Shown here: positions 40,271 to 53,017 of the stretch, in pieces | How positions within the stretch are numbered: position 1 is the first letter of the stretch | Layout: every line of letters begins with the position of its first letter | DNA from: Alphaproteobacteria bacterium | Lineage (GTDB): Bacteria > Pseudomonadota > Alphaproteobacteria > Caulobacterales > Hyphomonadaceae | DNA length: 64,000 nt | Assembly (NCBI GenBank): GCA_016125405.1 | Contig: WGLW01000005.1 | Coordinates: forward strand, 1 to 64,000 | Reading direction: 5' to 3' | Translations under genes and position numbers: made by a program | Notes under the pieces: generated by a model | What the model was told of the DNA's origin: nothing | The model's input: only the letters and a program-made list of their open reading frames with translations | Database searches by the model: none

Positions 40271-41434
40271 CTAAAGCGTGCGGGCGATGAGCAGCTTCAT
40301 GATCTCGTTGGTGCCGCCGTAGATGCGCTGGATGCGGCCGTCGCGGTAAAGGCGGCTGATCGGGAACTCGTCCATGAAGCCGTAGCCGCCGAAGAGCTGG
40401 AGGCAACGGTCGACGATCTTGCCTTCCAGATCGGTGAGCCAGTACTTGGCCATCGAGGCGGTGGCCGCATCAAGTTTCCCTTCGAGATGGACCTTGATGC
40501 AGTGGTCGACGAACACGCGGCCGACCGTCGCCTCGGTCTTGCATTCGGCGAGCACGAACTGCGTGTTCTGGAAGTCGGCGATAGCGCGGCCGAAAGCCTT
40601 GCGGTCCTTCACATAGTCGATGGTGAGTTTCAGCGCGCGCTCGATGGCGGTGATCGCCTGCACCGCGATGTTGAGGCGCTCCTGCGGAAGCTGGCCCATC
40701 AGCTGGTAGAAGCCCTGCCCTTCCTCGATGCCGAGAAGGTTCTCGGTCGGCACCTTCACGTCGTTGAAGAAGAGTTCGGAGGTATCCTGCGCCGGCTGGC
40801 CCAGCTTGTTGAGGTTGCGGCCGCGCTCGAAGCCCTCGGCGCCGTCGGTTTCAAGGAAGACCAGCGAGATGCCTTTCGCGCCCTGTGACTTGTCGGTCTT
40901 GGCGACGATGCAGATGAGGTTGGCGGTCTGGCCGTTGGTGATGAAGGTCTTGGAGCCGTTGATGACGTACTGGTTGCCGGACTTCAGCGCCGTCGTCTTG
41001 ACGCCCTGGAGATCGGACCCGGCGCCCGGCTCGGTCATGGCGATGGCGCTGACCAGTTCGCCGGTGCACATTTTCGGCAGCCAGCGGCGCTTCTGCTCCT
41101 CCGTGCCGTAGTGGAGGATGTAGGGCATGACGATGGCGTTGTGCAGCGAGATGCCGAAGCCGTCGACCGCCTTGTGGCCGAGCTGCTCCATCAGGATCAC
41201 TTCGTGGCGATAATCGCCGCCGGCGCCGCCGTATTGCTCAGGCGTCGAGAGGCCGAGCAGGCCCGCCTCACCCGCCTTCGTCCACATCTCGCGGTCGACG
41301 ACGTGGTTCTCGCGCCATTTGTCGACGACTTCCGGCGGGGCGGTCTGTTCGAAGAACTTGCCGACCGAATCCTCGAACATGCGGAGATCTTCCTCCGCCA
41401 GAAAATCGGGGCGTTCGACATTGAGGACGGACAT
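40271..41434 (-). CDS. Acyl-CoA dehydrogenase, LCAD/IVD-like
   Basis: 387 aa from ATG 41434, with AGGA 8 nt upstream. FAD-binding signatures are SAIAMTEPGAGSDLQG and FGRAIADFQNTQF, and the C-terminus is IYGGTNEIMKLLIAR. The position that holds the catalytic Glu in medium-chain enzymes (YEGT) is Gly here, so the base is expected to be Glu252 in LPQERLNIA, as in long-chain and isovaleryl-CoA dehydrogenases. It introduces the alpha-beta double bond in an acyl-CoA. It is the last of five co-oriented acyl-CoA genes. Confidence 0.9.
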   Translation of the reverse strand: MSVLNVERPDFLAEEDLRMFEDSVGKFFEQTAPPEVVDKWRENHVVDREMWTKAGEAGLLGLSTPEQYGGAGGDYRHEVILMEQLGHKAVDGFGISLHNAIVMPYILHYGTEEQKRRWLPKMCTGELVSAIAMTEPGAGSDLQGVKTTALKSGNQYVINGSKTFITNGQTANLICIVAKTDKSQGAKGISLVFLETDGAEGFERGRNLNKLGQPAQDTSELFFNDVKVPTENLLGIEEGQGFYQLMGQLPQERLNIAVQAITAIERALKLTIDYVKDRKAFGRAIADFQNTQFVLAECKTEATVGRVFVDHCIKVHLEGKLDAATASMAKYWLTDLEGKIVDRCLQLFGGYGFMDEFPISRLYRDGRIQRIYGGTNEIMKLLIARTL

Positions 41435-41548
41435 CAGGCTTCCTGCGGACTGGACGTTGAAGTTTACGTGCGCGTCATCCATGCACGATCAGGGCGCACG
41501 CTGTCCAATCCGAAATGGATGCGCCAAGGGCTGACGTTGCGTCGCTGG

Positions 41549-43420
41549 TTACTGGACGACCACGACGCCGGCGCCGGGCGGCGTGGTGAAGAGGTCCGCG
41601 ACTTCGGCGGCGCGGCGGTCCTGCGTCACGCGCTGGTTCACATAGCCCTTGTCGGTGATCTCTCCCGCATCGAGCGATGGCGGCGTCGAGAGGAGGCTGA
41701 ACCGGGCGATGCGGCGGGACGACCCGCCCTGCGTGCGATTGAAGGTAGAAAGCCGCGCGGCGATGTCGCGCGCGAGGCTGGCGAAAGCGGCCTGGGCGTC
41801 GCCGCCGGCCGCCTGCATTGCGGCTTTCATCGCTGCCGGAGCGGGCCAGATCAGCGCGCCGACAAACGGCTTGTCCTGGCCGCAGATCACCGCATCGCCG
41901 ACGAAGGGCGCGCACGCGGCGACGAGATCGGGGCGCAAGGTGCCGACCGACACCCACGTGCCGGAATCGAGCTTGAAGTCTTCCGTCACCCGGCCATCGA
42001 AGACGAGACCCGCTTCCGGATGATCGGGATCGGCGAAGCGGGCGGCGTCACCCAGACGGTAGAAGCCCTCCTCGTCGAACGCCTCGCGGTTCTTCTCGGG
42101 CAGGTTGAGATAACCCGACATCACCGTTGCGCCCTTGACGCGCACTTCCATCTTGGAGCCGGCGGGCGTCAGCTTCAGCGTCAGGCCGGGCAGCGGCAGG
42201 CCGACCATGCCGACCCGCTCCAGCTCCCAGTGAACCATGGTGACGCCCTGGGTTTCGGTGGCGCCGTACATCGTGGTGAGCGGAATGCGCCGGCCCGTCG
42301 CGGCGATCGCCAGCGCCTGCAGCCGGTCGTAGAGATCGTCCGACAGCGTGGCGCCGCCATAGACCATGTATTCCATGCGCGAGAAGAAGGCGTCGCGAAA
42401 CGCGGGGTCCGCCTCCATGGTTTCGGCCAGCATGGCGAAGGCGACGGGCGCAGACCCGAAATACTGCGGCCGCACCTCATAGAGATTCTTCATCGTGGTT
42501 TCGAAGAGACCCGGCGCCGGGCGCCCCTCATCAATGTGGAACGTGCCGCCAAGCGCCATGACGCCGTTGAAATTGACGTTGCCGCCGGAGATGTGGCTCC
42601 AGGGCATCCAGTCCAGCACTTCGAGGTCTTCGCCGGTGGCCTCCTCGTCCGGCGCATCGATGCCGCGGCGGGCGGCGATCTGCGCGACCATGGCGCCCTG
42701 CGTCTGCGGCGTCGGTTTCGGCATGCCGGTCGAGCCGGAGGTGAAGAGGTATTTGCCGACGGCGTCAGCGTCGATCCAGGCCATCGCCGTATCGACCGCG
42801 AGCGTCGGCTCGGTTTGCGCAAGATCGTCGAACGCCTCCGCGCCCTCCCCGCCATCGCCCGAGATCACCGACACGCCCGCAAGGTCCAGCGCGGAGAGCG
42901 CCTTGCGGAACGGATCCATGGTCTCGACATAGATCGCCTTCGGCTTCACCGCGTTGAAGCAGTGCTTCAGCTTGGCGAAGTCGCTGGAGAGCGTGGAGTA
43001 CGCCATGCTGATCGGCGTCGCCGGCGCGCCGATGCGCTGGGCGGCGAGACTCATCAGGGCGTGCTTGATCGAATTGCCGGAGAGGATCAGCAGCGGCGCG
43101 TCCGGCCCCAGACCCCGGTCGAGCAGCGCTTGCGCAAGCGACCGCGTGATCCGGGCGCCTTCGCCATAGGTGACGGAGCGCCAGGGCCCGTGGTTCGGCT
43201 CGCGCTGTTTCAGCCAGGCGCGATCGGGATGTTCGGCGGCCTTTTCATCGAGCTGATGGGGGATCGATCGCGGCGCGGGACCGGGCGGCGTGCGCGAGGT
43301 GAGATAGACCGAGCCATCGGGCCCGTGCCGCACCTCCATGTCCGGCGCCTTGAACGGCAACTTGCGAAATGGCGGAAGCTTGGCGCTGGCGCGCTCTGTG
43401 GTCGCGGTTTCAGCCGGCAT
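41549..43420 (-). CDS. AMP-binding acyl/aryl-CoA synthetase, feruloyl-CoA synthase-like
   Basis: 623 aa of the ANL superfamily. The P-loop is YLFTSGSTGMPKPTPQTQ, the adenine motif TTMYGATETQGV, and the A8 region GFYRLGDAARFAD. The N-terminal FKAPDMEVRHGPDGSVYLTS and GAPATPISMAYSTLS resemble feruloyl-CoA synthases rather than fatty-acyl ligases. It would activate an aromatic or long-chain acid to its CoA ester. It lies between the KAS III-like gene and an acyl-CoA dehydrogenase with gaps of about 90-115 nt. Confidence 0.85.
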   Translation of the reverse strand: MPAETATTERASAKLPPFRKLPFKAPDMEVRHGPDGSVYLTSRTPPGPAPRSIPHQLDEKAAEHPDRAWLKQREPNHGPWRSVTYGEGARITRSLAQALLDRGLGPDAPLLILSGNSIKHALMSLAAQRIGAPATPISMAYSTLSSDFAKLKHCFNAVKPKAIYVETMDPFRKALSALDLAGVSVISGDGGEGAEAFDDLAQTEPTLAVDTAMAWIDADAVGKYLFTSGSTGMPKPTPQTQGAMVAQIAARRGIDAPDEEATGEDLEVLDWMPWSHISGGNVNFNGVMALGGTFHIDEGRPAPGLFETTMKNLYEVRPQYFGSAPVAFAMLAETMEADPAFRDAFFSRMEYMVYGGATLSDDLYDRLQALAIAATGRRIPLTTMYGATETQGVTMVHWELERVGMVGLPLPGLTLKLTPAGSKMEVRVKGATVMSGYLNLPEKNREAFDEEGFYRLGDAARFADPDHPEAGLVFDGRVTEDFKLDSGTWVSVGTLRPDLVAACAPFVGDAVICGQDKPFVGALIWPAPAAMKAAMQAAGGDAQAAFASLARDIAARLSTFNRTQGGSSRRIARFSLLSTPPSLDAGEITDKGYVNQRVTQDRRAAEVADLFTTPPGAGVVVVQ

Positions 43421-43508: not shown

Positions 43509-44630
43509 CTAGGCCCGCTTCTCGACAAATACCGTGCCCGCCGAATAGCCCGCACCGAACGAGCAGATGAGGCCCTTGTCGCCGGGTTTGAAGTCCGACG
43601 AGTGCTTGTGGAAGGCGATGATCGAACCGGCCGAGGATGTGTTGGCGTAAGTGTCCAGCACCGTCGGGCTTTCATCCTCGCTGGCCTCGTGGCCGAGCAC
43701 CTTTTCGGCGATCAGCCGGTTCATGCCGGCGTTGGCCTGGTGCAGCCAGAGACGCTTGAGATCGGTCGCGGCAAGGCCCAGCCGGTCCATCTCGCCGAGG
43801 ATCATCTGCGAGACCATCGGCACGACTTCCTTGAACACCTTGCGGCCTTCCTGGACGAACAGCTTGTCGGCCTTGCCAATCCCCTCCGGCGCCGTGCGGT
43901 TGAGGAAGCCGAAATTGTTGCGGATGTTGTTGGAGAACTGCGTCTTGAGATGCGTGCCGAGGATCGACCACGCCCCTTTCGGCGCGATCTCTTCCGCCTC
44001 GATCAGCACGGCGGTGGCGACGTCCCCGAAGATGAAGTGGCTGTCGCGGTCGGTGAAGTTGAGGTGGCCGGAGCAGATCTCCGGGTTGACCATAAGCACC
44101 GACTTCGCATGGCCTGCCCGCACGAAATCGGCGCCGGTCTGGATACCGAAGGTGGCGGAGGAGCACGCGACGTTCATGTCGAACGCGAAGCCCTGCGCGC
44201 CGATGGCGTCCTGCACCTCGACCGCCATGGCCGGATAGGCGCGCTGCATGTTTGAAGCGGCGCAGATGACGGCGCCGATATCCTTCGGCTCACGGCCCGC
44301 GCGGTTCATCGCCTCGCGCGCAGCGGCGACGGCGATCTCGGCCAGAAGCGAAATCTGTTCGTTGGGACGTTCGGGAATGCGCGGCGCCATGATCTTCGGA
44401 TCGAGCACGCCGACGCGATCTATCACATAGCGCGACTTGATGCCCGATGCCTTTTCGATGAATTCGACGGAGGAGTGCTGTTTGGCTTCCAGGGTACCGG
44501 CCTTGATTTCATCGGCGTGCTCGGCGTTCCAGTTGTCGGTCCAGGCGTTGAGGCTGGCGACCAGCTCAGCGTTGGAAATCGACTCGGACGGGGTGAAGAG
44601 GCCGCTCGATGAAATTACAGGACGCGTCAT
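43509..44630 (-). CDS. Beta-ketoacyl synthase III (FabH-like)
   Basis: 373 aa thiolase-fold enzyme with the full KAS III triad: Cys156 in MNVACSSATFG, His297 in WLHQANAGMN, and Asn330 in TYANTSSAGS. It is about 50 residues longer than housekeeping FabH, mainly in the N-terminal third, so it is better viewed as a specialised Claisen-condensing enzyme. Its setting among acyl-CoA dehydrogenases and a CoA ligase suggests use of CoA thioesters rather than initiation of general fatty acid synthesis. Confidence 0.87.
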   Translation of the reverse strand: MTRPVISSSGLFTPSESISNAELVASLNAWTDNWNAEHADEIKAGTLEAKQHSSVEFIEKASGIKSRYVIDRVGVLDPKIMAPRIPERPNEQISLLAEIAVAAAREAMNRAGREPKDIGAVICAASNMQRAYPAMAVEVQDAIGAQGFAFDMNVACSSATFGIQTGADFVRAGHAKSVLMVNPEICSGHLNFTDRDSHFIFGDVATAVLIEAEEIAPKGAWSILGTHLKTQFSNNIRNNFGFLNRTAPEGIGKADKLFVQEGRKVFKEVVPMVSQMILGEMDRLGLAATDLKRLWLHQANAGMNRLIAEKVLGHEASEDESPTVLDTYANTSSAGSIIAFHKHSSDFKPGDKGLICSFGAGYSAGTVFVEKRA

Positions 44631-44724: not shown

Positions 44725-46134
44725 TCAGACCCGCCCCAGCGCCTCGATCGCGCCGGGATAACGCGGCTGGTCGATCAGGACCTGCGCAAGGACGCTGGTC
44801 CGCAGATAATCGTGCAGCCCGGGCGCATCGAGCGGCATGAGGCCTTGCCGGATCTGCTCGCAGAGCCGCTGGCGCAGGGCGGCCGCCTCGCCGGGCTCGC
44901 CCAGTAGCTGCGAAAGCATCAGACGCTCGCGAGCGACGGCGTCGGCGCCCAGCGACAGTTCGCGCAGGACGGTGTCGACGGAATTGGCGGCGACGCGCGC
45001 GAGGAAGGCGTTGCGGCCCTCGACCGACGCAACGAGATCGCGTGCGAGGAAATCCCGCACCGCGGTGAGCAGTTCGGCGGTGCGCGGCAGCGTGGAGGTT
45101 GAGAGATCGTGCCGGGCCTCGGCGGGCGGCGTCGCCGGGCCGGGGATCAGCAGGTTGACGCAGTCGATCTGGCATTCCGAACTGCGCCGGCCAATCGCCG
45201 GCCGTTCGACGCTGGTTTCCGATCCGTCGCGCCACGATTGCGCCATCGCAAGCGTGCCGACGGCCCACCAGAACGACCCGAAGACTTCCCAGAAACGCAC
45301 GGCCTCGCGATCAACCGGCTGGCCAGTGACGGACTCATAGCCGGCGAAGAGATCGTCATAGCCGCCGAAGCCGCCGACAGGCTTGCCCCTTACGCCGAAG
45401 CGCCACGAGCGTGTGCAGATCCAGCCGAGATCGCGCATCGGATCGCCGATGTGGGCCAGCTCCCAGTCGAGCACCGCGACGACGCCGTCATCCGGCCGGA
45501 CAATGAAATTGCCATTGCGGAAGTCGCTATGCACCAGGGCGGGCGGACGATCCGATGGCAGATTGGCCAGTAGCCAGTGCGCCGCGAAATCGATCATCGG
45601 CTGGGCGGTGTTGAAGGCAAGGTAGGAGGCGTAGGTCTGCCGGACGCAATCCTCAGGCGTCATCACATCGAGCAGCTTGTCGAGGCCGGACGCTGCGATG
45701 TCGATGGAATGAAGCCGGCCGAGAATCTCGCCGCACTGGCGCGCAAGTTTCGGACGTATCGCGGCGAACGCGTCGCTGCGGGCGATGCGCGCGCCCAGCG
45801 TTTCGCCATCGATCCAGTCCATGACGAACCCCGCGCCGAGATTGTCCGCCGCCTCCAGCACAAGGCAGACCTGGGGACCGGGAACGCCGGCGGCGCGCGC
45901 TGCGCGGAACAGGCTGGCTTCAGCGGTAAGGCCCGGGCCCTGCTTCAGCGACGATTCTTCGCCCGTCGCAGAACGCCTCAGCGCGAGCTGCTTCTCGACG
46001 CCGGCGATCCGCGCGTTGAGACGATAGGTCTCGCGGCTCGCGCCCGCGGTCAGACGCTCGCACGAAAGCAACGCCTCGAAGCCGGGCAGCCGCGCGCCGA
46101 GCACGCTTTCGAGTTTCGCCCGATCGATGTTCAT
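44725..46134 (-). CDS. Phosphotransferase (APH/ACAD10-like) fused to a DUF6285-like domain
   Basis: 469 aa from ATG 46134. Residues ~1-330 form an aminoglycoside-phosphotransferase-like kinase: LVHSDFRNGNFIV and VLDWELAHIGDPMRDLGWI are the catalytic and metal loops. Such kinases near acyl-CoA dehydrogenases act on hydroxyacyl-CoA or related metabolites (compare ACAD10/11). The last ~120 residues (from TAELLTAVRDFLARDLV) resemble DUF6285, usually a separate small gene next to the kinase. The linker SSECQIDCVNLLIPGPA joins them. It is 16 nt downstream of an acyl-CoA dehydrogenase gene. Confidence 0.85.
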   Translation of the reverse strand: MNIDRAKLESVLGARLPGFEALLSCERLTAGASRETYRLNARIAGVEKQLALRRSATGEESSLKQGPGLTAEASLFRAARAAGVPGPQVCLVLEAADNLGAGFVMDWIDGETLGARIARSDAFAAIRPKLARQCGEILGRLHSIDIAASGLDKLLDVMTPEDCVRQTYASYLAFNTAQPMIDFAAHWLLANLPSDRPPALVHSDFRNGNFIVRPDDGVVAVLDWELAHIGDPMRDLGWICTRSWRFGVRGKPVGGFGGYDDLFAGYESVTGQPVDREAVRFWEVFGSFWWAVGTLAMAQSWRDGSETSVERPAIGRRSSECQIDCVNLLIPGPATPPAEARHDLSTSTLPRTAELLTAVRDFLARDLVASVEGRNAFLARVAANSVDTVLRELSLGADAVARERLMLSQLLGEPGEAAALRQRLCEQIRQGLMPLDAPGLHDYLRTSVLAQVLIDQPRYPGAIEALGRV

Positions 46135-46150
46135 GTCCAGCCCGAACCCG

Positions 46151-47410
46151 CTATTCACGCACGCCCTTCGGCGCACGCTGTTCCATGAAACCGAACATAT
46201 AGCCGGCGACGCGCCGCATCTGGATCTCCTCCGATCCCTCGGTGATGCGATATCTGCGGTGATGACGATAGATGTGTTCGAACGGTTTGTGGCGCGAATA
46301 GCCGAGGCCGCCATGTACCTGCATCGCGCGGTCGGCGGCCTCGCAGCACAGCCGGTTTGACCAGTAGTTGCACATGGAGACCTGTTCCGAGGCGGCGAAA
46401 ACGCCTTCCGTATCCATCCGCCACGCCGTCTTGTGGATCAGCGCGCGCAGCATCTCGCATTGCGTCTGGAGTTCGACGAGCGGGAACTGGATCGCCTGGT
46501 TGGCGGCGAGCGGCTTGCCGAACGGCTTTCGCACTTTCGCGTAGGCGACCGCCTCGTTGATGCAGTATTGCGCAGCGCCGAGCGAGGACGCCGCCTGCCG
46601 GATGCGGTTCTCGTTGAAGAAGTGCTGGACGACCTGAAGGCCCCTTCCCTCGCCGCCGAACACCGCGCTGTCGGGAACCTCGACGTCGGTGAGGGTGATG
46701 TGCGCGTGGTCGGTCGGCATGTTGAACGTCCAGAGATACTCCTCGATGTGGAAGCCAGGCGCCTCGACGGGCACGAGGAAGGCGGTAATGCCCTCGCCGT
46801 CGCCGGCCTTGCCGCTGGTGCGCGCGAAGATGAGGTCGTGGCTGACCGCATGGACGCCCGTGTTCCATGTCTTCTCGCCGTTGATGACCCAGCCGCCATC
46901 CTTGCGCACAGCCGTGGTTTCCATGTGGGTCGCATCCGAGCCGTGCGCCGGTTCGGTGATGCCGAAGCCAAAGCCGCGCCGGCCATGCGCCAGTCCCTCG
47001 AAGAATTCGGCCTTCTGCTCCGCTGTGCCGTAATGCGCCATCAGCATGGCGCCGACGCTGTTGCCGACGATGGAATGCTCGTTCTGGAGGTCGTTGTGGA
47101 GGCCGAGGCCTTTTGCCGCGAGATGCTCGCGGATCACCGCCATGGCGAGATTGGAGCCCCCGCCGCCGCCCAGGTCCTTCGGCAGGGCGAACCGATAATG
47201 CCCGGCCCGATCGGCCCTCGCCCGCGCCTCAGCCAGCAACGCCTCCCAGTCCGGGCGAGGCAATCCCCTGTTTTCCCAGTCCGTTCTTGCGTGTTCGCGC
47301 CGGTGGTCGAAGAATCGGATATTGTCATCGGCGCGTTCTAGTGGCTTGATTTCGGCTTCAATAAAGGCGTCGAGAACGCCCAGATAGGCCGTAAGCTCTT
47401 GGGGGAGCAT
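46151..47410 (-). CDS. Acyl-CoA dehydrogenase, ACAD10/11-like
   Basis: 419 aa from ATG 47410. FGFGITEPAHGSDATHMET is the FAD/substrate motif and FGKPLAANQAIQFPL the second signature. The C-terminus has YRITEGSEEIQMRR, with Glu at the canonical medium-chain catalytic position, so this enzyme differs in chemistry layout from the one at 40271. It heads the minus-strand cluster and pairs with the downstream kinase, an arrangement matching the fused human ACAD10/11. It is divergent from the TetR regulator. Confidence 0.9.
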   Translation of the reverse strand: MLPQELTAYLGVLDAFIEAEIKPLERADDNIRFFDHRREHARTDWENRGLPRPDWEALLAEARARADRAGHYRFALPKDLGGGGGSNLAMAVIREHLAAKGLGLHNDLQNEHSIVGNSVGAMLMAHYGTAEQKAEFFEGLAHGRRGFGFGITEPAHGSDATHMETTAVRKDGGWVINGEKTWNTGVHAVSHDLIFARTSGKAGDGEGITAFLVPVEAPGFHIEEYLWTFNMPTDHAHITLTDVEVPDSAVFGGEGRGLQVVQHFFNENRIRQAASSLGAAQYCINEAVAYAKVRKPFGKPLAANQAIQFPLVELQTQCEMLRALIHKTAWRMDTEGVFAASEQVSMCNYWSNRLCCEAADRAMQVHGGLGYSRHKPFEHIYRHHRRYRITEGSEEIQMRRVAGYMFGFMEQRAPKGVRE

Positions 47411-47470
47411 GAAGTTCAAATCCTCGCCTCCGGCAGGGTTTCTGCATCTCAAGCTGACAGGAACGACGGC

Positions 47471-47481
47471 ATGTGTCACAT
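47471..47481. promoter_or_regulatory. Candidate TetR operator
   Basis: ATGTGTCACAT is a perfect 11-nt palindrome around a central T, placed midway in the 107-nt divergent region between the acyl-CoA dehydrogenase and TetR genes, where autoregulated TetR repressors usually bind. Longer TetR sites are typical, so this may be the core of a wider dyad. Confidence 0.35.
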
Positions 47482-47517
47482 GGCACGTTAGTGAAGTAGA
47501 CGGTGTCCAGGAGTACC

Positions 47518-48135
47518 ATGAAGTTGCGCCAGCAGGCTGAAACCAAAGTCATTCCGGTCGAGGACGTTCGCGGGTCGATCCTCAACGCCAGCCTCGAGCT
47601 GATGAACCAGGGCGGTCTGGCGGCGTTGAGCATGCGCGAAGTCGCGCGCCGCGCCGGAGTAAGCCACCAGGCGCCGTATCACTATTTCGCCGATCGCGAA
47701 TCAATCCTCGCCGAACTGGTGCGGGACGGGTTCGAGAAACTGACCGGCTATATGGAGAACTCGCTCCGCGACGTTCGCAGCTATGACGACAGCATCGCCG
47801 CGATGGGCGAAGCCTATGTCGCCTTCGCGCTCGATCATTCTTCGCAATTCCGGTTGATGTTCCGGTCCGAAATGGTGGACTCGACCCGACACCCCGAAGC
47901 CCACGCGGCTGCGGAAAAGACCTTCGACCTCTGCGTCAAGATCGTCACCGGCCGGGACCATTGCGAAGAGGCAAAGGACCGAATCCCCGTGATCGCGGCG
48001 TGGTCGATGGCGCACGGCCTCGCGACGCTGTATCTCGAAGGCAAGCTGACGCAGGCGACCGGAGATACGCGGGCCGAGCGGCTCGCCGGGGCTCGCGCTG
48101 TCTTCACTCACTATCTCGCAAAACCCAGGCGCTGA
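47518..48135 (+). CDS. TetR/AcrR-family transcriptional regulator
   Basis: 205 aa from ATG 47518, with AGGAG 5 nt upstream; a GTG at 47503 is an inferior alternative. The N-terminal HTH is ALSMREVARRAGVSHQAPYHYF, and the C-terminal ligand domain resembles the TetR_C_33/WHG type (FRLMFRSEMVD). It is divergent from the acyl-CoA gene cluster and probably represses it, responding to an acyl-CoA or its acid. The TonB-like gene follows after 18 nt and may be cotranscribed. Confidence 0.88.
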   Translation: MKLRQQAETKVIPVEDVRGSILNASLELMNQGGLAALSMREVARRAGVSHQAPYHYFADRESILAELVRDGFEKLTGYMENSLRDVRSYDDSIAAMGEAYVAFALDHSSQFRLMFRSEMVDSTRHPEAHAAAEKTFDLCVKIVTGRDHCEEAKDRIPVIAAWSMAHGLATLYLEGKLTQATGDTRAERLAGARAVFTHYLAKPRR

Positions 48136-48153: not shown

Positions 48154-48573
48154 ATGATCGTCCGCAGCTTCGCCATCTCCGCGCTGGCGGCGGCCTTGCT
48201 GATGACCGCTCATGCAGATCCTCCCGCAGCGGCGACCACAGAGCCGACATTCCGTGCGGACACGCCGCTGCCCGCCTATCCGCCCCGCTCGCGGCGGCAC
48301 AAGGAGGCCGGCGTCGTCAAGCTGGCGCTCTGCGTCGATGCGGCGGGCAAGGTGACGAAGGCGGATCTCGCGAAATCGAGCGGCTATCCCAACCTCGACA
48401 AAGCCGTGCTGACCTGGATTCACAGCGTGACCATGAACCCGGCCATGCGGGGCGCTACGCCGGTCGCGGTTTGCGACATTCCCTTCAGCTATGAATTCAA
48501 GGTCACCAAGGGGCCGGACAAACTGCAGACCCGGACGACCAACCCGTTCGACGTCGGCCCACCGTCAAACTGA
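48154..48573 (+). CDS. Secreted TonB C-terminal domain protein
   Basis: 139 aa. The Sec-type signal peptide (AISALAAALLMTAHA) is followed almost directly by a TonB C-terminal fold: TPLPAYPPRSRRHKEAGVVKLALCVDAAGKV through WIHSVTMNPAMRG. Two Cys residues (CVDAAG, VCDIPF) could form a disulfide. Full TonB proteins have a membrane anchor and a Pro-rich spacer, both missing here, so it is more likely a stand-alone periplasmic TonB-domain protein of unknown role than an energy transducer. Confidence 0.75.
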   Translation: MIVRSFAISALAAALLMTAHADPPAAATTEPTFRADTPLPAYPPRSRRHKEAGVVKLALCVDAAGKVTKADLAKSSGYPNLDKAVLTWIHSVTMNPAMRGATPVAVCDIPFSYEFKVTKGPDKLQTRTTNPFDVGPPSN

Positions 48574-48585
48574 CCGCGCCGGAGA

Positions 48586-49296
48586 CTAGCTCCAGCCGCC
48601 CGACATCTGGATGACCTGTCCGGTGAGGAAGGCGCTGTCGCCGAGCGTCAGCAATTCCGCCACCGCCGCGACTTCCGAGGCCCGGCCGAGCCGGCCAAGC
48701 GGGATGCGCGAGAGCAGTTTCGGGCCCTTCACCGGATCATCCAGCAGGGATTGCGGATAATAGGTCTCTGTCTGCACATAGTTGGGTGCGACCGCGTTGA
48801 CCGAAATTCCGTCCCGCGCCAGTTCGAGGGCGAGGCTGCGCACCGCACCGTTCACCGCGGACCGAGCCGTCACGTAGGCGATGAAGCCCGGGCCGCCGCC
48901 CATGGGCGTGGCCGAGGTGCCAAAGACGATGCGCCCGGATTTGCGCGGCCGCATCGCCTTGGCCGCAGCTGAGGCGAAGACCAGCGCTTCGGCGGCGAGC
49001 CGCTGGTAGAATGGCATCAGCTGGTCGACCGTGAGTTCGTCCGCCGGCGTTCTCGGCGCCGGCATGGCGGGCGCGATGAAGATGGCGTCGAGACGGCCGC
49101 CGAACCGCTCCACGGCGCGCTCGACCAGCACGCGCGGGTCGGCCCAGGCAAGGACTTCGATCCCGCCCTCTTCGCCGTGTCGATCGATCGCCGGATCGCA
49201 CGCGATCACGCGCGCGCCCGAGGCCCCGAGATGACGCGCCACATCGGCGTTGGCGAAGCCGCGCAGGTCGGTGACGAAAACGGATTTCCGGGTCAT
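48586..49296 (-). CDS. SDR-fold protein with halohydrin dehalogenase signature
   Basis: 236 aa. The catalytic set is Ser128, Tyr141 and Arg145 (TSATPMGG and YVTAR), which is exactly S-X12-Y-X3-R. Ordinary SDR oxidoreductases have Y-X3-K. The N-terminal NAD motif TGxxxGxG is missing; instead VTDLRGFAN gives T-X4-F, close to the T-X4-F/Y-X-G motif of halohydrin dehalogenases, with Asn in place of the last Gly. From memory, KSGRIVFGTSATP, VAPNY and LTGQVIQMSGG line up with HheC. These enzymes close vicinal haloalcohols to epoxides and release halide. An inactive SDR relative is the alternative. Confidence 0.7.
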   Translation of the reverse strand: MTRKSVFVTDLRGFANADVARHLGASGARVIACDPAIDRHGEEGGIEVLAWADPRVLVERAVERFGGRLDAIFIAPAMPAPRTPADELTVDQLMPFYQRLAAEALVFASAAAKAMRPRKSGRIVFGTSATPMGGGPGFIAYVTARSAVNGAVRSLALELARDGISVNAVAPNYVQTETYYPQSLLDDPVKGPKLLSRIPLGRLGRASEVAAVAELLTLGDSAFLTGQVIQMSGGWS

Positions 49297-49961: not shown

Positions 49962-51041
49962 TTATTCCGCCGGACCGCGCGCCTCGCCGATGGGTGTGCC
50001 GAAGATGCCCGGCCCCATGCTCGGTTTGATTCCCTTCGCTTCTTCCAGCCGTGCGCCGCCGAGAATGCCCTTCATGGCATAGTTGCCTTCGTGGCAGGCG
50101 TATTCGTAGACGGCTTCGTGCCGGGCGTTGAGACTCTCTTCGCCCTTCCACGGCTGGGTGTAGTAGACCGGATCATCAACCGTGAATTCGTAGAAGATCT
50201 GGTCCTTTGAGACGCGGGTGAAGCGTTCGGTCACCTTGCCCTGCGCGCTCATGAAGATGGGACCGGACTGACCCTGCTCGGGATTCACGTCGGTGGTTTC
50301 GACGACGAGCGTATCGCCTTCCCACCAGCCCACGCTGTCGCCGAGCCACGGCTTGATGACGCTCGGCTTGTGGTGCGCAGACGCCCTGTCCCTGGCGATC
50401 GGAATGATGCGCGCATCGTGGACCATCTCGACCATGATCATCACGGCGCCGGGCGTCTGCACGATCTGGTAGTTGTTGTTGTAGATCGTGTTGAGCATGC
50501 CCGGACCGCCTGCGCCGGTGAAACCGATCAGGCAGCGCTCGGCTGTGGGCAACGCTTCCGGGCCGCCGAACAGCACCTTGCGGCGGGAGGCGCCAAACGC
50601 AGTCGCCTTCTTGCGGCCTTCATCCGACAGCGGCATGCGCCCGTCGGGCGGGTCGACGATCCACGACGTACGGATTTCGCCCTTGACCACCGCAAGCGAC
50701 TTGCCCGGATCGATCCAGAACGTGTTGTAGCCCCGGTCATTGTTGCCGTCGGCCAGCAGGTTGTCCTTGAGGTTCGAGGCGCCGGCTTCCGACTGCGCCA
50801 GACGAATCCACGGATTGTTCTTCACCAGATCTTCGGCCTCGCCCTTCGAGACGACGAGCTTGGGAATGCTGGCCGGGCGCGTGAGATTGGTGAGCGAGGC
50901 GTTGGACCAGATGCCCTGCAGGTCGGCATGCCCGTCGGCGGCCCGCGGCGCGACGTAGGCGTCGGTGGCGCCGGTCTGGGCGCTGGCCGGCAGGGCGAGC
51001 GCAAAACCGAGCGCGATGGTTGCGGCAAGGCGAACCTTCAT
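49962..51041 (-). CDS. Secreted protein, 359 aa, unknown function
   Basis: A Sec signal peptide ends PASAQ. The mature protein has the segment ADLQGIWSNASLTNLTRP near its start, then VGWWEGDTLVVETTDVNPEQG, and ends near YEYACHEGNYAMKGILGGAR. This set of motifs recurs in a large uncharacterised family of periplasmic proteins in Proteobacteria and Acidobacteria, whose role is not known to me. It lies 114 nt downstream of the HAD gene on the same strand and might belong to the phosphotriesterase-HAD unit. Confidence 0.8.
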   Translation of the reverse strand: MKVRLAATIALGFALALPASAQTGATDAYVAPRAADGHADLQGIWSNASLTNLTRPASIPKLVVSKGEAEDLVKNNPWIRLAQSEAGASNLKDNLLADGNNDRGYNTFWIDPGKSLAVVKGEIRTSWIVDPPDGRMPLSDEGRKKATAFGASRRKVLFGGPEALPTAERCLIGFTGAGGPGMLNTIYNNNYQIVQTPGAVMIMVEMVHDARIIPIARDRASAHHKPSVIKPWLGDSVGWWEGDTLVVETTDVNPEQGQSGPIFMSAQGKVTERFTRVSKDQIFYEFTVDDPVYYTQPWKGEESLNARHEAVYEYACHEGNYAMKGILGGARLEEAKGIKPSMGPGIFGTPIGEARGPAE

Positions 51042-51155: not shown

Positions 51156-51872
51156 TCAGGCGCCGAGCTGGCGCGCCAGATCGTTGAAGTCGGCTGCAAC
51201 GATGTCGTATGCGCCCGGCTCGGCCGCCGGACCGCTCTTGCCCGGGCCATACTCATCAGGCCGCGGGATGAAGGCGGTGGAGAGACCGCGCGACCTGGCG
51301 GCGTCGAGATCCCAGACATGGCAGGCGACCATCATCACCTGGCCGGGTTCGAGATCGAGAGAGGCCGGAACGCTGTCATAGACCGGCGCCATGGGTTTGT
51401 AGGTCTGCACGAGTTGCGACCCGAGAATGACGTCCCAGGGAAGTCCGGCGCGCTTGGCCATGGCGACGGCGAGCGAGAAATTGGCGTTGGAGACGGCGGC
51501 CAGGATGAACCGGCTTTTAAGCCTTTGCATGCCGGAGAGCACATCAGGCCAAGGGTCCAGCCGGCGCCAGGCGTGCGCCAGTTCGTCCTTGTCCGCTTCG
51601 GTGAGGTCGGACACGGAAAACTCGGGCAGCACCGCCTCCAGCATCTCGCGGTGGAGCGTATCCATGGTCACGTAGCCGCGCTTGCCCGACCGCACGCCGT
51701 CCATCGCCGGCTGGTATTCCGAACGCCAGCGATTGGCGAAGGCGATCCAGTCCAGCTGGTAACCGCGTGCGCCGAGCATCTGCTCCGCATCGCGCGCGAC
51801 GCCAGAACACCAGTCGACCGTTGTGCCGAAAATGTCGAACGACAAGGCGCGGATGCGGGACAGGTCGGCCAT
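51156..51872 (-). CDS. Haloacid dehalogenase type II-like HAD hydrolase
   Basis: 238 aa from ATG 51872; a GTG at 51884 overlapping the upstream stop (GTGA) is an alternative. The nucleophile is Asp13 in LSFDIFGTTVDW, with Thr17 behind it. The substrate Arg lies in FANRWRSEY, the Lys in QTYKPMAPVY, and AAVSNANFSL is motif II. At the position of L-DEX Asn177 it has His (ACHVWDLDAA). That mix fits the type II haloacid dehalogenase group but leaves the actual substrate open. It follows the phosphotriesterase-like gene directly. Confidence 0.8.
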   Translation of the reverse strand: MADLSRIRALSFDIFGTTVDWCSGVARDAEQMLGARGYQLDWIAFANRWRSEYQPAMDGVRSGKRGYVTMDTLHREMLEAVLPEFSVSDLTEADKDELAHAWRRLDPWPDVLSGMQRLKSRFILAAVSNANFSLAVAMAKRAGLPWDVILGSQLVQTYKPMAPVYDSVPASLDLEPGQVMMVACHVWDLDAARSRGLSTAFIPRPDEYGPGKSGPAAEPGAYDIVAADFNDLARQLGA

Positions 51873-51880
51873 GGCGGCGG

Positions 51881-53017
51881 TCACGCCTTCCGTTTGATCT
51901 TCGGCACGAAGGCGAGAAACCGGCGGGGATTATCGACCATGATCTTGTGCAGCACCTCGTCGGATGCGCCGAGCTTCTTCACTTTCGGAACGAAGACAGT
52001 GAGCGCCTTTGCATAACCGCCGTCGGGATTGTTGCGCTTGATCTCGCGCGGCGAGGAAATGTCAGCGGAAAACATCAGGTTGTCGGCATAGCCGGCGTCG
52101 ATGAGGGACATCGCCATCGCGGCGACCGGATCGTCATTGGCCCCGCCCTGCCGGTCGAAGCCAACAAAAGCGCCGCGGCGGATGATGGCGCGCTGGATCT
52201 CCGTATTCGGGTCGTTGAGATTGCCGAGGTGCCCGATGACGACCCGCTTCGGGTCGACGCCGGCGTCCTCAAGGATGTCGAGCTGTTCCAGCGCGGATTT
52301 TCCCGGAATGCCGGTGTGGGTGAAGATCGGCAGGTTGGTGGCGAGGTGGACCCTGCCGACGGCGCGGAAGACCTTGCGCTCGTCCTTGCTGATATAATCC
52401 CACGAGCCGATCTCGCCGAGCGCGCCGATAGGGTCGGCCCGGACCTGCTTCATGATCGCTTCGAAGACCTGGTCCTCGCTCCAGGAGGAGAGCTCCTTCG
52501 GGTAGAAGGGCTGCGTGTAGAAGCCGGCGCTGGCCACGATCGGCAAGCCGGAATTCTTCGAGATCTTGCGCAGGAAATTGATGTCGCGACCCATGTCCGG
52601 ATGGCCGGCGTCGACGATGCAGGCGATCCCTTCTTTTTTCGCGATCGACATCTCGTCGGACATCAGATCGACGTCCTCGAGAAAGTTGGGCGGCGGGGTT
52701 GCAGGTGTCGCCGGGGACGGCCGCGCGGGCGGCGGCGGAGCGTTCGGCGCGCGGTTGGCGGCGCGGGTCTCGCCCGCATACCGCATCCAGTCGACCATGA
52801 ACCCGTCGCGAAGCGACATGTGCTCGTGGAAAAGCGTTGCACCGCCCGCAAGGTCTTCCGGCGCGTAGTCCTTGAACAGCGTGCGGATGACGGCGCCCTT
52901 GGGAAAGGCCGGCGCCGCCTGGGCCGGTCCCGGCAGCGCCGCGGCGGCCGCGCCGGCGGCGAGAAGTCCCAGCGTCTCGCGGCGGGTCCGCCCCGCGCTG
53001 TGCGGATGTCCTCTCAT
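51881..53017 (-). CDS. Phosphotriesterase-family amidohydrolase with Tat-like signal
   Basis: 378 aa. The N-terminus GRTRRETLGLLAAGAAAAALPG has a twin-arginine signal pattern and an Ala-rich hydrophobic core. The amidohydrolase metal ligands start at LFHEHMSLRD; IGALGEIGSWDY and IFTHTGIPG follow, and VVIGHLGNLND and FSADISSPRE complete the TIM-barrel set. Family members are lactonases, esterases or phosphotriesterases. A Pro/Ala-rich insert (~residues 92-112) is unusual. It is cotranscribed with the HAD gene, whose start lies at its stop codon. Confidence 0.82.
   Translation of the reverse strand: MRGHPHSAGRTRRETLGLLAAGAAAAALPGPAQAAPAFPKGAVIRTLFKDYAPEDLAGGATLFHEHMSLRDGFMVDWMRYAGETRAANRAPNAPPPPARPSPATPATPPPNFLEDVDLMSDEMSIAKKEGIACIVDAGHPDMGRDINFLRKISKNSGLPIVASAGFYTQPFYPKELSSWSEDQVFEAIMKQVRADPIGALGEIGSWDYISKDERKVFRAVGRVHLATNLPIFTHTGIPGKSALEQLDILEDAGVDPKRVVIGHLGNLNDPNTEIQRAIIRRGAFVGFDRQGGANDDPVAAMAMSLIDAGYADNLMFSADISSPREIKRNNPDGGYAKALTVFVPKVKKLGASDEVLHKIMVDNPRRFLAFVPKIKRKA

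Follow-up and report, generated by a model that had tools for sequence, protein, structure and literature searches.

An HHDH-like protein of the SDR fold with asparagine fixed at the motif 1 glycine in a lineage of Hyphomonadaceae

Within the 64,000-nucleotide stretch of contig WGLW01000005.1 analysed here (the window), a 711-bp open reading frame on the minus strand encodes a protein of the SDR fold, and the plus-strand reading of the same interval is interrupted by a stop. The locus raises the question of whether its product is a halohydrin dehalogenase (HHDH) hidden among SDR oxidoreductases, as claimed in a preliminary description of the sequence, or a protein with another role. Residues T9, F14, N16, S128, Y141 and R145 are read directly from the translation, which contains a single match to S-X12-Y-X3-[RK] and a single match to T-X4-[FY]-X-[GN]. 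Two fingerprints of HHDHs are given in the literature, T-X4-F/Y-X-G (motif 1) and S-X12-Y-X3-R (motif 2) (PMC4989007, PMC11976700). Motif 2 is present as Ser128-X12-Tyr141-X3-Arg145, just as the preliminary description had it, and this motif with its Ser-Tyr-Arg triad is found in all 15 members detected in the taxonomic family; motif 1 is not present, the protein reading T9-X4-F14-X-N16. Both classical SDR motifs are likewise absent: where the cofactor motif T-G/A-X3-G/A-X-G (as defined in PMC11976700) would lie, the sequence is TDLRGFAN and the dinucleotide-binding turn is lost, and the catalytic S-X10-14-Y-X3-K is broken by Arg145. The claimed loss of the NAD-binding Gly-rich motif and the claimed Lys-to-Arg change thus hold, and do so in 15/15 family members. 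Seven of the 15 other matches in the same genome were used as SDR controls (L002-L008). All seven have Lys at the R145 column; five can be read at motif 1 and show the Gly-rich turn (L004 through its last three letters only), and L007 and L008 have gaps at the motif 1 positions. A scan of genome contigs gave six remote loci, and the HHDH triad is found in none of the three compared, L009 and L011 having S-Y-K and L010 having T-I-K (L012-L014 lay outside this comparison).

Pfam assigns the HHDH-like protein to adh_short and adh_short_C2, and 173 NCBIfam families match it at 0.001, none of the best 25 of which is above its cutoff; a generic annotation would indeed say SDR, as had been anticipated. 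The top phmmer match in the PDB is 6a41 ('dehalogenase', 7e-41), followed by the SDR 1x1e, a deoxygluconate dehydrogenase, as the best oxidoreductase (3e-25), and chains of HheC, HheG, HheB and HheA are among the best 60 of 375 matches at 1e-5. The segments TSATP, PNY and LTGQV, said to resemble HheC, are all present, and phmmer aligns them with HheC (5kvc). A literature search on 'halohydrin dehalogenase' together with '6A41' found no paper combining them, and one pairing HheE or HheF with the family name likewise gave none from which to assign a subtype to the 6a41 branch. An AlphaFold model computed on 42 sequences, from the window and the loci, reaches a mean pLDDT of 95.6 and a pTM of 0.93. 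Structural modelling had been proposed as a check, and among the best 50 Foldseek matches the predicted fold is nearest to the HHDH-type structure 6a41 (TM 0.92, rmsd 2.1, 36% identity), with HheA and HheC chains at TM 0.90-0.91 and SDR chains lower at 0.78-0.86; chains of HheG and HheD8 score 0.82-0.86, no better than the SDRs.

In a tree of 59 rows, which included the 15 family members, class proteins, HHDHs and SDRs, the family members form one clade (100/100) whose stem is 1.49 changes per column long. This clade adjoins the class proteins L033 (94/78) and L031 (98/91) and lies within the HheA/HheC/6a41 branch (the A/C branch, 97/94), the SDR rows being separate (100/98) and the HheG rows lying beside the SDRs (92/79). 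In a second tree, which left out the motif columns and four rows, a split of 99/99 divides the A/C branch from the SDRs plus HheG, and there is no clear tie of L033 and L031 to the family clade. Given that HheG falls on the SDR side, HHDHs as named do not form one clade in these trees. AU tests rejected all three placements of the family clade with parts of the SDRs, the groups having been defined with knowledge of the first tree (p 6e-6, 2e-4 and 2e-4). Placing the family clade and all SDRs on one side was not rejected (p 0.167 and 0.423), and the family clade may therefore be sister to the A/C branch instead of nested in it. The tree with SDR outgroups envisaged at the outset favours a grouping on the A/C side, and three SDR placements are rejected, but a position adjoining the A/C branch from outside is compatible with the tests. 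The HHDH-like protein probably sits with the A/C-type HHDHs rather than with the NAD(P)-dependent SDRs.

The structure 6a41, entered in the PDB as 'dehalogenase' or 'Dehalogenation enzyme', shares the Ser-Tyr-Arg triad and reads N-Y-V in the loop; unlike the HHDH-like protein it has T-X4-F-X-G, and its stretch following strand 2 is longer. HheC (5kvc/1pwx) and HheA (4z9f/1zmo) share the fold (TM ~0.90), S-X12-Y-X3-R and the PN-F/Y loop, but are ~25-27% identical to the HHDH-like protein and have Gly, not Asn, in motif 1; enzymes of this type are known from haloalcohol-enriched strains (PMC4989007). HheG and the B/D-type HHDHs (5o30/6i9v; 4zd6, 7b73, 8xxb = HheD8) have the SDR fold and Ser-Tyr-Arg in common with it but are more distant, HheG being the nearer to SDRs in the trees. 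Classical SDRs in acyl-CoA pathways, LvaD among them, resemble it in fold and in the adjoining genes for CoA ligase, kinase and acyl-CoA dehydrogenase (PMC6692424), but LvaD uses NADH or NADPH and the HHDH-like protein is without the cofactor motif.

Searches for relatives, with the HHDH-like protein as query and its own genome counted, found the gene in 14/15 genomes of the genus at 1e-20, the other copies being 62-67% identical, and in 15/105 genomes of the family at 1e-22, the only one outside the genus being G092 (61% identity). At the level of the order it was found in 13/398 sampled genomes at 1e-30, all 13 within this family, in the class in 44/385 sampled genomes at 1e-22, with the best matches outside the family at ~40-43% identity, and in the phylum in 2/398 sampled genomes at 1e-30. 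A plasmid search returned 60 records at 1e-15, all below 60% identity. Outside the own genome, the search of the class pointed to 47 places; 29 of these were fetched and examined. Pairwise comparison of the 15 family genes (105 pairs) gives a median dN/dS of 0.16 and a maximum of 0.29, with synonymous change near saturation in many pairs, which indicates purifying selection and a gene that is maintained and not decaying.

The residue that sets this lineage apart is at position 16, which is Asn in all 15 family members and Gly in all 29 examined class relatives; in a 42-row alignment it is Asn in 14/14 family rows and Gly in 28/28 other rows. Phe14 accompanies the triad in all 15 family members and Thr9 is kept in 14 (Ala in L021), and the 29 class relatives all have Ser-Tyr-Arg, with Thr in 27 (Ser in L044 and L050) and Phe or Tyr as the aromatic residue of motif 1 in 27 (Trp in L052 and L056). 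Residues after strand 2 are missing in the family clade, leaving a shortened loop, and 13 of the 14 family rows have a GAW end where the others have GGW, the window protein being the exception that keeps GGW. N172, Y179 and P181 are invariant in 42/42 aligned proteins and lie in what is presumably the counterpart of the halide-site loop of HheC; its PNY also reads ANF or ANY in relatives.

Saturation mutagenesis of the motif 1 Gly in HheC and HheG left detectable activity with Ala only, in qualitative assays; according to a figure legend, certain HheC mutants were not obtainable, so that Asn in HheC is not certainly among those tested (PMC11976700). Even with Ala, the kcat of HheC G14A on 1,3-dichloro-2-propanol fell from 1.84 to 0.05 per second, and HheG G20A retained activity mainly with thiocyanate and bromide, indicating that the motif 1 Gly residue can tune anion preference (PMC11976700). 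In the passages of PMC11976700 consulted, natural variation in motif 1 is named at the threonine only, and a broad search, not narrowly aimed, that took in parts of PMC11976700, PMC11536340 and PMC10099379 turned up no naturally occurring substitution of the Gly. Deletion of loop 39-47 of HheG gave a soluble, inactive enzyme (PMC11536340); this loop would correspond to the stretch shortened in the family clade. The preliminary description gave the residues of T-X4-F correctly and counted Asn for Gly as one deviation; the change is not a minor one, being fixed in 15/15 members at a near-immutable residue. Given that Asn16 is fixed where HheC and HheG tolerate only Ala, the published motif 1 is lacking and ordinary HHDH activity is not to be assumed, and for lack of this motif the protein is not classed here as an HHDH.

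Table 1. Features of the window at and around the HHDH-like gene.
Feature	Position	Strand	Basis
HHDH-like SDR-fold protein, 236 aa; T9-X4-F14-X-N16, S128-Y141-R145, P171-N172-Y173, Y179-Y180-P181	48586..49296	-	sequence, alignment, fold comparison
TetR-family regulator (TetR_N, TetR_C_33), convergent with the HHDH-like gene	47503..48135	+	Pfam, synteny
Acyl-CoA dehydrogenase, conserved acyl-CoA cluster	46151..47479	-	Pfam, synteny
APH-type kinase fused to DUF6285, conserved cluster; kinase part matches ACAD11 structures	44725..46314	-	Pfam, synteny
Beta-ketoacyl-ACP synthase III-like, cluster in some relatives	43509..44630	-	NCBIfam NF005703 above cutoff, synteny
AMP-binding acyl-CoA synthetase, cluster in some relatives	41549..43420	-	NCBIfam NF009232 above cutoff, synteny
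Second acyl-CoA dehydrogenase; 84%-identical counterpart in G092	40271..41482	-	Pfam, synteny
359-aa protein, unmatched in Pfam (1e-5) and NCBIfam (1e-10)	49962..51041	-	synteny

The genes around the HHDH-like gene (Table 1) are partly conserved. The TetR gene is convergent with it in all 12 testable genus genomes, L017 and L018 being left out where the contig ends before the flank, and no TetR gene was found next to it in G092. A small gene with a TonB C-terminal domain (48154-48573; Pfam) separates the two in the window. Beyond TetR, counterparts of the first dehydrogenase (46151-47479) and of the kinase-DUF6285 gene occur in 8/8 genus regions of greater length, and counterparts of the beta-ketoacyl-ACP synthase III-like, acyl-CoA synthetase and second dehydrogenase genes in some of these eight, within limited region lengths. 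In one region, a gene for an AcrB-type RND pump (L058:4534-7698; Pfam) separates TetR from the acyl-CoA dehydrogenase gene; a gap of 3-4 kb is found at this position in six other genus regions (the pump was Pfam-checked in L058 alone), and the window and G007 have no insert there. With start codons assumed, the HHDH-like gene of G003 and G010 begins 61 bp downstream of a same-strand gene for an AMP-binding CoA ligase (the Pfam assignment being from the G003 copy alone), and the G092 counterpart (84%) of the second dehydrogenase starts 34 bp past the end of the HHDH-like gene. In G007, a counterpart of the 359-aa protein lies directly upstream on the same strand; counterparts of this protein in the regions of G003, G007 and G011 have 59-66% identity.

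Copies of the kinase with at least 54% identity, a cut chosen after the list was seen, are present in 14/105 family genomes vs 15/105 for the HHDH-like gene, both occurring in 13. The HHDH-like gene is without the kinase in G009 and G012 (73% and 77% complete), the kinase is without the HHDH-like gene in G101 (82% complete), and G013 (99% complete) has neither; in G092 the two are ~600 kb apart. This pattern of co-occurrence could come from shared ancestry alone. The kinase is of the ACAD10/11 type, ACAD11 chains are among the four PDB matches of the kinase-DUF6285 protein at 1e-8, and its sequence possibly represents an LvaA-LvaB-like fusion. The Lva (4-hydroxyacid) pathway that this protein suggested is kept as a lead only, the dehydrogenase at 46151-47479 being without an ACAD10/11 match among 12 PDB sequences (1e-40).

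A type II haloacid dehalogenase gene (51156-51884; NCBIfam 156 vs cutoff 125 bits) lies 1.9 kb from the HHDH-like gene in the window, followed by a gene for a phosphotriesterase-family protein (51881-53017) with an N-terminal export signal apparent by eye. No such dehalogenase was seen near the HHDH-like gene in the nine family regions compared, and a search covering the PF06441 family found no EHN-type epoxide hydrolase in the genome, which weakens the case for a haloalcohol-degradation cluster.

The reading preferred here, at a probability of roughly 0.55, is that the protein is a cofactor-independent SDR-fold enzyme of HHDH descent with a rebuilt anion pocket and perhaps an acyl-CoA-linked substrate. 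Judged from sequence and the predicted model, its build is that of an HHDH, and it may function as such. With activation by Arg145 and help from Ser128, Tyr141 would then take the proton of a substrate hydroxyl or give one to an epoxide oxygen, while an anion in the pocket that would replace the nicotinamide site leaves or attacks the neighbouring carbon. The fixed Gly-to-Asn change and the shortened loop after strand 2 would have rebuilt this pocket in the lineage, in which case the anion or substrate is probably other than that of classical HHDHs; the neighbouring genes suggest one linked to acyl-CoA. The long stem of the family clade is a trace expected of a change of function and counts against an HHDH-type reading. 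Of the original claim of an HHDH hidden among SDRs, the A/C-type grouping is supported by sequence, tree and predicted fold, but motif 1 is altered and dehalogenase activity is put forward as a hypothesis.

It is conceivable, albeit unlikely, that the protein is an ordinary HHDH, compensated for the Asn and still interconverting classical haloalcohols and epoxides, given that it has retained the fold and the triad together with Phe14 and the PNY/YYP loop, and a haloacid dehalogenase gene is close by. However, Ala alone was left active at the motif 1 Gly in two HHDHs (PMC11976700), the gene is present genus-wide next to acyl-CoA genes, no EHN epoxide hydrolase was found in the genome, and the haloacid dehalogenase is not a feature of the nine regions compared. 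A descendant of HHDHs that has abandoned their chemistry, keeping the triad for another acid-base reaction (acyl-CoA or hydroxyacid) or for a binding role, would account for the long stem, the clade-wide Gly-to-Asn change, the shortened loop and the operon-like pairing with acyl-CoA ligase or acyl-CoA dehydrogenase genes. This is also unlikely, and the triad and several loop residues, invariant in 42/42, would not be needed for a pure binding role. It is very improbable that the protein is an SDR oxidoreductase that depends on NAD(P) and has some atypical residues: Pfam and the best 25 of 173 NCBIfam matches give SDR models only, 1x1e is the second-best PDB match and the AU tests leave a position next to the SDRs, but the Gly-rich turn and catalytic Lys are missing throughout the family, 6a41 is the nearest fold among the best 50 matches, and three placements among the SDRs, for groups picked after the first tree, are rejected. 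A more specific proposal, tentative and rather improbable, is a lineage beside or within the HHDHs in which acyl-CoA or hydroxyacyl substrates undergo anion-leaving or epoxide chemistry in the normal metabolism of the genus, with Asn16 as an evolved anion-selectivity switch.

HHDHs are biocatalysts and have been mined through the two sequence motifs (PMC4989007). The statement that known members are few is dated, 37 mined genes and 26 further sequences having been counted by a 2016 review (PMC4989007). A mining filter that demands both motifs would miss the Asn16 lineage, in which the Asn fixed at the motif 1 Gly constitutes a natural experiment on a residue reported to be nearly immutable. 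The native role presumed so far for HHDHs is haloalcohol detoxification (PMC11536340), and the Asn16 lineage may indicate a native role other than this.
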